Shown here in pieces: positions 3,829 through 16,391 of a stretch of DNA of 64,000 nucleotides. The notes under the pieces are model-generated. The model saw only the letters and a program-made list of their open reading frames with translations. It had not been told where the DNA came from and did not search any database. Both the position numbers and the translations under genes were made by a program. How positions within the stretch are numbered: the stretch's first letter is position 1; every line of letters starts with the position of its first letter. Source of the stretch: Antedon mediterranea (lineage: Eukaryota > Echinodermata > Crinoidea > Comatulida > Antedonidae); assembly GCF_964355755.1 (NCBI RefSeq), contig NC_092671.1:6769001-6833000 (forward strand), in the 5' to 3' direction.

Positions 3829-6800
3829 AAGAAGTATTGGGAACCGTGACAGTTTCACTAAAACTAAAGAGCTACAGTAACCGAGCAAGCCGAGAACTCG
3901 ATGGTGATTGCTGTGATAACTTGTGGGGCAGCTGTAGCAACAAATGCGACAACTTCTTCATTATATGTCTTGATAATTATGGCAGGTTTGTTACGAATCT
4001 GAATTTCTATAATATAGGCCTATTGTTTTTATCTGTATTATTGACATGGTAAATTTTCTTTTAATCATAACCATATCTTGTATGTGTGCGATCTGTAGCC
4101 AAGCCAACTCATTTTAGGAAGAAATGCAGTTCTGGGAGAATGCAGAGATACTTTCTAAATTATATACAGAACAATAATTTATTCCAGAGTTCATATATCT
4201 TTTTAAAACAAAGTAGCATAGAGTATCAACTCAAAGACCTTACTCGCATGTTTGTATCCATAAATCTGTGACAATTTTCTTTTTTTTTTTGGTCAATTTA
4301 TTCTCCTGGGTTAGAGACCACATTAATATACATGAATATTCATAAAGGAAAATTATAATAAAACGTCCACGTGTATAATGAATGAATAAGTCGTGAAGGT
4401 ATTTTTTTTTACGATTGTCAGTGGCCTGATGCTAATTATTTCCGTGGCGTGACTGGTCACAATACTGAATGGACATTTGGATGATCATGTGACATTTTTA
4501 TTCTTGTAGTTCATTTTTCATGATTAATATTTTCCATCGAGTAATCATCGGTAAATTAAAACTAATGATATAATGATCGTCATTATCATCTGCATTCGTC
4601 ACTGAATATTTAATTAACCAAATCAATATACATTTCGGTTTGCATTTTAATTAGATTTTGGCGATATTGCGATGGTAGGTTTGAAACAGAGAGATAGATA
4701 ATTCATTGTCATTGACTATAGTTAATTGATTATCAAGTACCGGTACTGTACCTATACGGCATTTTAAAACATTTCAATACTGATATTACATAGGCTAAAG
4801 TTGAAATGAAACAAAAACATGTTTTGCCTCACAAAAGAGAAAAACAACATTGATATGCCTACAGTATCACCACATTGTTGTCGAACTTTGATTGTCTTAT
4901 TTTATTCTCGTTATCACTAATCGTCGAGAAACGATATAACTTTCACCATGATGCCATACTTTTTTTCGCCTATCGGGGTGCACAATGACAGTGTAAACTT
5001 TAGATTTGTAATTTCACCATATTGAAAACAAATATTTTCGCCTTTCCTTATTGTATTCAAACATATTTAACCATTCAACCATGGACCTATAAATTTTATA
5101 GGTCCATGCTTCAACAATCATTTTAATCTCCGTTACACGTCGATCAAAGTTGATGATAATATAAGGTAGAAATGAGAGACTAGTTTATATAGAACCTAAA
5201 TAATACTTCCTTTAATACTACCTTTAGGGCCTATAAGGATAATGGGGTATTGTATAATAGGAAACTCCATGATATTTTAATTGTTATCGTTTGTTCAATA
5301 CTTCCTAAGCCGATAGATTAATAGCTTTTCCCATTTCCTTTCCAAAGTTCATTTAAGGAAACCAAAATATTGATTATACCCGGATATGACGTTATTTCTA
5401 AAAGTATTATAGGCCTATTCTTGTTAATTACAGATGCCTATGTAAATTTACTGGTATCATAATCCAGTCACCTGATATATAACCGTTTATGAGGTATCAG
5501 ATCGTATGTTATGATCCATTTCATTCCAATAAAACATACATTTATTGCCAAATATCACACTTTTCATGCTAATTACACATACAGAAGTATGGCACAGCCT
5601 ACCATGTTTTACGCGATAAGAATGTAGCAAAAACGACCCCCCGATATGCTTTCGATATGCTTTGGTAATGGGTAAAGTTAATGTGTAATTTTAGTATATT
5701 ATAGTGGCAAATTTTAGTTTTTGTTTCTAAAATAAAGCACGATTGTTACATAACAGTATAAGACCTATACGCTCTTCCCGTCTAATGAGACTCATGCCAT
5801 CATTCATTATCATAAATTACATCAGTATTCATTTTTAGGCAGCAATTCTTTGCCACTACATACACAGTGTAGGCCTACACCGCACTTCCACCGTATTGCC
5901 CAGAGAACACTCCCCAGTATCTTAAACCAGCAACTCAAATACTTCAGTAGTTTGTGGTTTAGTGCCAGATGTGGCAAAAAGACGTTTCATTATCTGCTTA
6001 ATCCATCCTCTCTCTCGGGATGCACTTGCAGATGTCCGCTTTCTTTGTCAATTATATTCAAAACGGAAGTATCATCTCTCTGTTCAATAAGCATTTTATT
6101 ATTAATAATAATTATTTAAATTAACTCGCATTTCACTTGGAGGCGTTAGTAGTAGAACCTGTTTCCACAGTGTACGTTTTTTGTGCAGCCGGCCTCATAT
6201 ACTTATTAAGTACGGTAATAATATTGTTTGATACAAATAAACATTGTGAAAAGAGATTTGAAGATATATTAAAGTCACGTCGATTGAAGCACTTAAAATG
6301 AACATTTAGCTTTCTCAAAACACCTAAGTCTTCTGGAATAATATGAATATCGTTGCTTCTGGTTAATTATAAACCTTTAGGCCTACAACGACGTGAAGCA
6401 GAAGATCGTCGTAAAAAAGGTGTTTTTAAAAAGTGTTGCTACAGAATTCAGTCGTGTTATTATCAATGTTGGTGCAAAGGTTGATATTTTAATAAGCAAT
6501 ACAACGTTTAAACCCTTTAGGCCTAATTATCAATGTTAATATTATGTTAATATTTATATTTTCTTTCAATTTTGCTTGCGCCTTGCATCAATGTTATAAG
6601 CCAAATCGTATTTACGTGTGCGCGTTTGTAGGCCTAATTGTAAAATGTTAACTTGTATTTTGTCTATAAAGTAGGTTTTTGTATTTCATATTGTCTGCCT
6701 TCCAGATCAAACAACATAAACACATGTCCAAAGGGACGTTACAGGACGAACAAGATTTTCTCCGATGACGACGTGTTCAATTTTCCAAGCGTTCTACCAG

Positions 6801-15800: not shown

Positions 15801-16391
15801 TTTTATCTTTTAGAAGTCATGGATGTTAGGAAATTGGCAAACCATTGTATTTGCATCCGCCGGCTTCCTTACTATTATGTTTATCACAGTTCTACTGATA
15901 ATGAAGGTCAAAAGGTAGACCAAAATATTGTCACTTATTGTTTTTAATTCAATTGATTGCATTATAGACAAGAGAAAATAACGATGCAATCGACTGATAG
16001 TCTTCTGAAAGTGAAATCACATAACTGTATGTCTATAGAAACAATCTTATGTGTGTGATCTGAGAACTGCTAAACAATATTTGATATTTGTTGTGAACTC
16101 CAAACAGATATTTTCTAAATCTATCAAACGTTTTAGATCTAGTTTATAACGGGTTTTTTTCAATGAATTTTTAGGAGGAGGAGAGAGGAAAAGGCACTGA
16201 ACCCAGTTGTTCGTGTTGAGAGTGTAAAATTCATAAACCCTGTGACATCATACTTTGAAGGTGCAGAATATAACGGAGGAAAACCAAACATGTTTCCCAC
16301 AGATACGTTACTAACCGAAGTGATGGAACTTGACGATGATACAGCGTGGGATAGACCAGAAATGGAAATGTCGACATTTAAACAAGAATAA
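3829..16391 (+). CDS. DSL-family Notch ligand (Jagged/Serrate/Delta-like), 5'-incomplete
   Basis: Single-pass membrane ligand that would activate Notch on neighbouring cells. Exons with matching phases: 3829-3985, 6706-6844, 7771-7925, 8634-8893, 10706-13775, 14102-14256, 14502-14676, 15078-15258, 15814-15914, 16175-16391 (stop TAA). The first three encode the N-terminal C2-like (MNNL) domain, with [20 protein letters not shown] and later [11 protein letters not shown]. The next encodes the DSL domain ([20 protein letters not shown], then GHYFCDD) and one EGF repeat. About 28 further EGF repeats follow, then a juxtamembrane region containing RSKR (furin-like), a transmembrane segment ([20 protein letters not shown]) and a tail of about 70 residues ending STFKQE. 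The seen part is about 1535 residues; the signal peptide exon is missing. No von Willebrand C-type cysteine block is seen before the membrane. Vertebrate Jagged proteins have 16 EGF repeats and Delta proteins about 8, so this one is greatly expanded. Confidence 0.9.
3986..6705 (+). other. Intron of the Notch-ligand gene
   Basis: AT-rich intron between the first two recognised exons; donor GTTTGT, acceptor TTCCAG, phase 2. It contains scattered AGGCCTA words and no supported gene or element. Confidence 0.75.
6845..8633 (+). other. Two introns of the Notch-ligand gene (6845-7770 and 7926-8633)
   Basis: These flank the exon at 7771-7925. The first has donor GTAAGT, acceptor TTGCAG and phase 0; the second has donor GTAAGT, acceptor TTCTAG and phase 2. 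The first holds the stem-loop at 7612-7670 and, near 7249-7310, a stretch with a B-box-like GGGTTCAAATTC that may be a SINE fragment. Nothing else is recognised. Confidence 0.7.
7612..7670. repeat. Perfect 16-bp inverted repeat with TTAA ends
   Basis: TTAAGGCAGAAATCAT at 7612-7627 is exactly inverted at 7655-7670, with a 27-nt loop. Each end carries TTAA. It could be a minimal palindromic MITE or solo hairpin; with TTAA inside the arms no target duplication can be separated from the arms. Confidence 0.6.
9083..9200. mobile_element. MITE copy (GGTTCCCACTAG family), right end degraded
   Basis: Begins TTGGTTCCCACTAGGACGTA, followed by GCAACAAAAGCG and the paired words TTGACCAATCACACG and GAGATTGGTCAAATCAC. 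The right terminal TIR is not preserved, so the far boundary is approximate. It lies directly before the minisatellite. Confidence 0.7.
9221..9739. repeat. 22-bp intronic minisatellite, about 23 copies, with 4-unit higher-order pattern
   Basis: The unit is AGGCCTAAATAAGGTATAAG followed by GA or CA. The CA variant occurs at 9305, 9393, 9481, 9701 and 9723; the gaps are 88, 88, 220 and 22 bp, all multiples of 22, with two successive 88-bp (four-unit) periods. The first and last copies are truncated or mutated (AAGACCTAAAG at the end), and two internal copies read AGGTCTA. The unit contains the AGGCCTA word that is common elsewhere in the window. Confidence 0.97.
10358..10464 (-). mobile_element. 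tRNA-derived SINE fragment
   Basis: Read on -, it starts AGTGGAGCGGTAGCTTGGTGG, with an A-box-like TAGCTTGGTGG, and ends with CAACTCCACTCC. The two ends can pair like an acceptor stem. The B box is degraded. The head resembles the fuller copy at 29264-29515. Confidence 0.5.
10484..10573. repeat. 45-bp tandem duplication
   Basis: Two essentially identical head-to-tail copies of a 45-bp unit starting ACTGTGGTGAAAATTATG; the second copy starts at 10529. It is intronic, with no evident function. Confidence 0.9.
10706..13775 (+). CDS. Giant exon encoding 26 consecutive EGF repeats of the Notch ligand
   Basis: One uninterrupted 3070-nt exon (acceptor TGCAG before 10706, donor GTGAGT at 13776). 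It encodes 26 complete EGF modules of about 38 residues and the start of a 27th. Most begin with a calcium-binding-type start such as DINEC, EIDEC or NINEC and carry the six-cysteine spacing ending in GY/F-x-G-x-x-C. Repeats 23 (TDPCLNSTC) and 25 (NIDDC) deviate from the EC start. A Ser/Thr/Pro linker (TSPPTTLAP) precedes the split 27th repeat. Many modules carry N-x-S/T in the C2-C3 loop (NNATC, NNGTC, HNSTC), so heavy N-glycosylation is plausible. No intron separates the modules, unlike many EGF-array genes. Confidence 0.93.
13776..16174 (+). other. Introns between the 3' exons of the Notch-ligand gene
   Basis: Introns 13776-14101, 14257-14501, 14677-15077, 15259-15813 and 15915-16174, all GT-AG and phase-consistent with the flanking exons. 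The fourth holds a tandem array at 15341-15693. Open frames inside these introns have no coding support. Confidence 0.8.
15341..15693. repeat. Imperfect tandem array, unit about 19-20 bp
   Basis: Repeated CCTTATAAACGTTTTTCCTA-like units with indels (CCAGTATAATAAACG variants near 15445 and 15468). It is intronic. The long open frame across it arises from the repeat and is not a gene. Confidence 0.85.

Follow-up and report, generated by a model that had tools for sequence, protein, structure and literature searches.

A DSL-family gene with 29 EGF repeats in the crinoid Antedon mediterranea, a candidate member of a third group of DSL genes

Gene content of the locus

The window analyzed here is a stretch of 64,000 nucleotides of the A. 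mediterranea genome (contig NC_092671.1, positions 6,769,001 to 6,833,000 of the forward strand), within which positions are numbered from its first letter. Its first part is occupied by a gene of ten exons, lying on the + strand at 3822-16391, with canonical splice sites and matching phases at every junction. The original prediction had placed the start of this gene at 3829. The span was correctly designated and the exact start was not, since the best acceptor sets the first MNNL exon at 3822. The spliced frame comprises 1,538 codons and ends with the stop codon TAA at 16389-16391. Exons 1-3 encode the MNNL/C2 domain and exon 4 the DSL domain; the EGF array extends over exons 4-6 and is followed by a membrane-proximal domain in exons 7-8. 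Exon 9 contributes a transmembrane helix and exon 10 a tail of 72 residues.

The MNNL/C2 domain starts in the exon 3822-3985 (AG/GT, phase 0 to 2), which was matched by PF07657 in the genome search, continues in 6706-6844 (AG/GT, phase 2 to 0), where the sister genes described below are cut identically, and ends with its acidic loop in 7771-7925 (AG/GT, phase 0 to 2; PF07657). The DSL domain and most of EGF1 are encoded by the exon 8634-8893 (PF01414), the donor of which lies within EGF1. A single exon of 3,070 nt (10706-13775), recognized by its open frame and EGF pattern, then begins with the last part of EGF1 and breaks off midway through EGF28, and the exon 14102-14256 (AG/GT, phase 2 to 1) completes EGF28 and adds EGF29. 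The two halves of a putatively SEA-like juxtamembrane domain are found at 14502-14676 (phase 1 to 2), ending with the motif RSKR, and at 15078-15258 (phase 2 to 0). They are followed by the transmembrane exon at 15814-15914 (phase 0 to 2) and by the last exon, 16175-16391, which was assigned by its frame and contains the cytoplasmic tail and the stop codon. The two juxtamembrane exons and the transmembrane exon have homologous counterparts in sister genes, in the case of the second half in genes A, G, H, I and J.

Pfam recognized the MNNL domain on the joined exons (PF07657, E 2.8e-15) as well as the DSL domain (PF01414, E 2.3e-13, above the cut-off), so that the DSL domain of the original prediction is borne out, as is a transmembrane protein of the DSL family, the transmembrane exon following the EGF repeats. 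The nearest PDB structures are the N-terminal regions of Drosophila Delta, which is the best match, DLL1 and Jagged1 (E 4e-21 to 2e-17). No second match of the cytoplasmic tail was found anywhere in the genome. No signal-peptide exon lies within the window; a phase-matched candidate, MFTIKYIALLYFILCLWQCGQGLPI, in phase 0 and with the donor ATA|GTGAAT, is located upstream, at a distance of 9.6 kb from the window start and 13.4 kb from the first MNNL exon. Two introns of the gene contain satellites: at 9222-9733 a 22-nt unit that includes AGGCCTAAATAAGG is present 23 times, and at 15337-15672 a 20-nt unit 16 times.

Several other features were noted in the window. Exons of a coiled-coil gene, presumably resembling LZTFL1, lie at 19713-22679 on the - strand. 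An RRM followed by arginine/aspartate-rich exons is found at 28018-34516 on the + strand, in a gene which we take to be eIF4B-like. Exons of a bZIP transcription factor with glutamine-rich stretches, PAR/NFIL3-like by eye, are present at 36725-38623 (- strand). An open frame of 1,277 residues at 56479-60309 (+ strand) reads like a BEL/Pao-type retrotransposon polyprotein, and GC-rich minisatellites with units of 15-22 nt (GGACAACTACCCCCC and TATAGTTGGGTCTCCCTTTTCG) extend from 61896 to 63660, GGACAACTACCCCCC being present in both orientations.

The EGF array

About 29 EGF repeats had been predicted, and a strict cysteine-spacing pattern counts exactly 29. EGF1 is interrupted between cysteines five and six by the intron that follows the DSL exon, and EGF28 by the one that follows the giant exon. 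Complete EGF modules can therefore be obtained only from joined exons, which, to the extent that DNA can show it, places the DSL and EGF exons in one mRNA and leads us to reject two separate genes, one of the outcomes against which the prediction was to be checked. The other was an assembly duplication of the array. At the DNA level its 38-residue units have a mean identity of 56% and a maximum of 67%; a recent duplication as well as one introduced by the assembly is rejected on these grounds, and the divergence of the units indicates that the array is old.

The consensus for O-glucose is present in 24 of the 29 EGFs and that for O-fucose in 21. EGF1 and EGF2 are of the ordinary type and not of the DOS type; a Delta has about 7-9 EGFs including DOS-type EGF1-2, which sets this gene apart. 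As predicted, no vWC cysteine block was detected between EGF29 and the transmembrane helix, nor was there a Pfam match to one, whereas the Jagged of the same genome does contain a vWC block.

DSL genes of the genome

The genome (354 Mb, 18 contigs) was searched and found to contain ten DSL loci and one clear Notch NOD domain, so that the window gene belongs to an expanded set. One locus is a canonical Delta (C10, 10.53 Mb), in which DOS-type EGF1-2 head a short series of EGFs. Another is a canonical Jagged (C10, 0.91-0.96 Mb) with DOS-type EGFs, many separate EGF exons, a vWC block and a membrane-proximal region of its own, the nearest solved structure of which is Jagged1. The remaining eight, including the window gene, are devoid of DOS-type EGFs. 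Six of them, genes A, E (the window gene), G, H, I and J, all on C2, bear long arrays in giant exons, and C and D, both on C7, are short DSL genes. Besides the window gene, three of these long-EGF DSL genes, H among them, form a cluster on C2 at 19.97-20.07 Mb.

No positional orthology between the EGF arrays of the sister genes was found. In gene H the EGF units are near-identical (up to 97% in protein), and its array is, as read from these units, a recent amplification. MNNL exons of this gene were not found within 6 kb upstream, a region in which retrotransposon-like reading frames were observed.

Placement in the DSL family

An unrooted MNNL-DSL tree was built with the window gene and genes A, C, D, G, I and J against Delta and Jagged sequences. 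The rows for the Delta and Jagged of this genome are incomplete, as the short third MNNL exon of each is missing; these exons were sought and not found. The window gene and its six sisters are split from Delta plus Jagged, including the copies of the same genome, with a support of 100/100, and this split persists in a subset restricted to short branches. The original prediction had read the gene as a Jagged/Serrate offshoot and had called for such a phylogeny. Membership of the DSL family stands, but the gene falls outside the rows of both Jagged and Delta, and Jagged membership is rejected, as vWC and DOS are absent and a clade uniting the window gene with only the Jagged rows has a p-AU of 1e-7.

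The Delta rows cohere without the window group (85/85, and 97/91 in the subset), and monophyly of Jagged is supported at only 34-75%. Because of this low support, the group may derive from the Jagged stem or may be older than the split between Delta and Jagged. Its own stem is long, with about 2 changes per column.

The DSL binding face

In the alignment the position of Jagged1 F207 is occupied by Arg in the window protein, and that of R201, which we take to be a Notch contact residue, by Val. None of the members of the window group has a phenylalanine at the F207 position, and the Delta of the genome retains it. In Jagged1 the F207A substitution abolished Notch1 binding and most of the activation (PMC3888931). 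The canonical Jagged of this genome also lacks an F207 equivalent (CRPHNVSRHFTC) despite its DOS EGFs and vWC block, and loss of F207 alone is therefore no proof of lost Notch binding. The DOS motif supports the activity of Dll1, and Dll4, without DOS, is still active (PMC6986876). The acidic loop of the C2 domain, needed in Jagged1 (D140/D144) for lipid binding and activation (PMC3888931), is retained or even more acidic in the window protein.

The juxtamembrane domain

The window gene shares its juxtamembrane domain with five sister genes, A, G, H, I and J. In A, G, I and J the homologous post-EGF exons have the phases 1 to 2 and 2 to 0, followed by a transmembrane exon of phase 0 to 2. In gene H the second half and the transmembrane exon are present, and the first half has a clear frame with an acceptor that scored too low for listing. 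Neither Pfam nor a PDB profile search gave a match for this domain. By eye, the order strand-helix-strand / strand-helix-(strand) can be followed in the six genes, which suggests that the fold is probably SEA-like. AlphaFold models of the two separate exon halves were of low confidence. The Pfam SEA profile found no match in the genome, but its control was likewise silent, which makes this search uninformative. With very shallow alignments, hhalign found no match to the C-terminal region of Jagged or to MUC1, approximate sequences having been used for human MUC1 and for the C-terminus of human Jagged1. Identity with the Jagged C-terminal region or with a classical SEA domain is thus unsupported by Pfam, by the PDB profile search and by hhalign.

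The motif RSKR lies in the loop between the two halves and is the sole extracellular RX[KR]R of the window protein. No furin motif was found in the corresponding stretch of the sister genes. In Notch, the furin site sits in the juxtamembrane heterodimerisation domain, and this parallel makes it an attractive idea that a cut at RSKR could yield a two-piece ligand.

Discussion

Taken together, these results point to a third DSL group in the genome, in addition to its single canonical Delta and single canonical Jagged, with the window gene as a divergent Notch ligand or modulator, a reading to which we give a probability of about 0.6. With Jagged/Serrate proteins (JAG1, JAG2, Drosophila Serrate) the window protein has in common the MNNL/C2 and DSL domains, the EGF array and the type I transmembrane topology. 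It differs from them by its ordinary EGF1-2, the lack of vWC, its position outside the Jagged rows and its number of EGF repeats, 29 against the 12-18 reported for Jagged (PMC2770060). Moreover, EGF1-28 are encoded essentially by one exon, unlike those of the Jagged of the same genome, with approximately one exon per EGF. Delta proteins (DLL1, DLL4, Drosophila Delta) likewise combine MNNL/C2, DSL and EGF domains without vWC, but the window gene has three times their number of EGFs, no DOS motif and a different juxtamembrane domain and tail, and it is placed outside the Delta rows. A further likeness is to the Notch receptor, in which about 30 glycosylation-ready EGFs are also followed by a juxtamembrane domain that carries a furin-type site. 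The window gene nevertheless carries a DSL head in place of the ligand-binding EGFs, has neither LNR nor ankyrin repeats, and its juxtamembrane domain is unmatched to NOD/NODP.

Long EGF arrays alone are not new, and DSL duplicates with unusual EGF numbers are already known. Compared by description only, the invertebrate long-EGF proteins named 'Delta' or 'DSL-like' resemble the window gene in their unusual EGF numbers or extra domains and in being lineage-specific duplicates. Delta-labelled proteins with 0-75 EGFs have been described (Gazave et al. 2009, PMC2770060), Delta-like and DSL-like genes have been reported in Platynereis (PMC5356439), and sponge and Lottia have several ligands each (PMC3482393). 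In the open-licence literature we found no description of a separate DSL group that unites long arrays with this membrane-proximal domain.

The product, a DSL-superfamily protein with type I membrane topology, would be exposed at the cell surface, with its DSL head carried on a long, calcium-stiffened EGF stalk, and would encounter the Notch receptor of the genome on the same or on a neighbouring cell; cleavage of the RSKR loop by furin could produce the two-piece form. Since the DSL face is altered and DOS-type EGF1-2 are missing, weak, cis-inhibitory or decoy binding of Notch appears more likely than strong activation. Judged from sequence, the protein is most likely a cell-surface Notch partner with a modulating effect on signalling, exerted in cis or by acting as a weak ligand.

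Other explanations have to be weighed against this one. An ordinary activating ligand, namely a rapidly evolving copy of either Jagged or Delta which still triggers Notch in trans, would account for the intact MNNL and DSL domains, the preserved acidic loop and the lysines of the tail that could be ubiquitinated, and the tree leaves the attachment of the group relative to Jagged undecided. We consider it unlikely, because the group stands apart from the Delta and Jagged of its own genome with full support and a long stem, and because of the altered DSL face and the absence of both DOS and vWC. The strong divergence of this face, together with the presence of ten DSL loci where only a single clear Notch is found and of long EGF arrays that vary among the sister genes without positional orthology, would also fit an adhesion or recognition protein independent of Notch, with another partner for the DSL head and a stalk as in fibropellin- or Crumbs-type proteins. 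The cysteine frameworks of MNNL and DSL and the O-fucose and O-glucose motifs of the EGFs are kept, however, and make such a function distinctly unlikely.

An artefact, be it a pair of genes read as one or an array that has decayed or been misassembled, is highly improbable. The first exon, with the signal peptide, falls outside the gene model and two introns contain satellites, but the introns within EGF1 and EGF28 require the joining of neighbouring exons, 1,538 codons are read without a stop, the sister genes show the same exon order and phases, and the EGF repeats do not exceed 67% identity.

Returning to the reading of a third group that includes a divergent ligand or modulator, a more far-reaching form of it would be a third class of Notch ligands, with about eight genes for a single Notch, characterized by a long receptor-like EGF array and a SEA-like domain and including, in the window gene, a furin-cut member. 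We regard this form as rather doubtful. If it were true, the furin-cut ligand, in two pieces like Notch, could shed or unfold under pulling force.

In the usual picture Delta and Jagged are the ligands of one or a few Notch receptors. In this genome a single clear receptor gene stands against ten DSL loci. Seven of these loci fall in a separate, well-supported group, and most of the seven have long EGF arrays and a common membrane-proximal domain. Should these proteins be Notch binders, how many ligand types there are, the length of the stalk and possible processing by furin would become testable variables in the pulling or blocking of the receptor.
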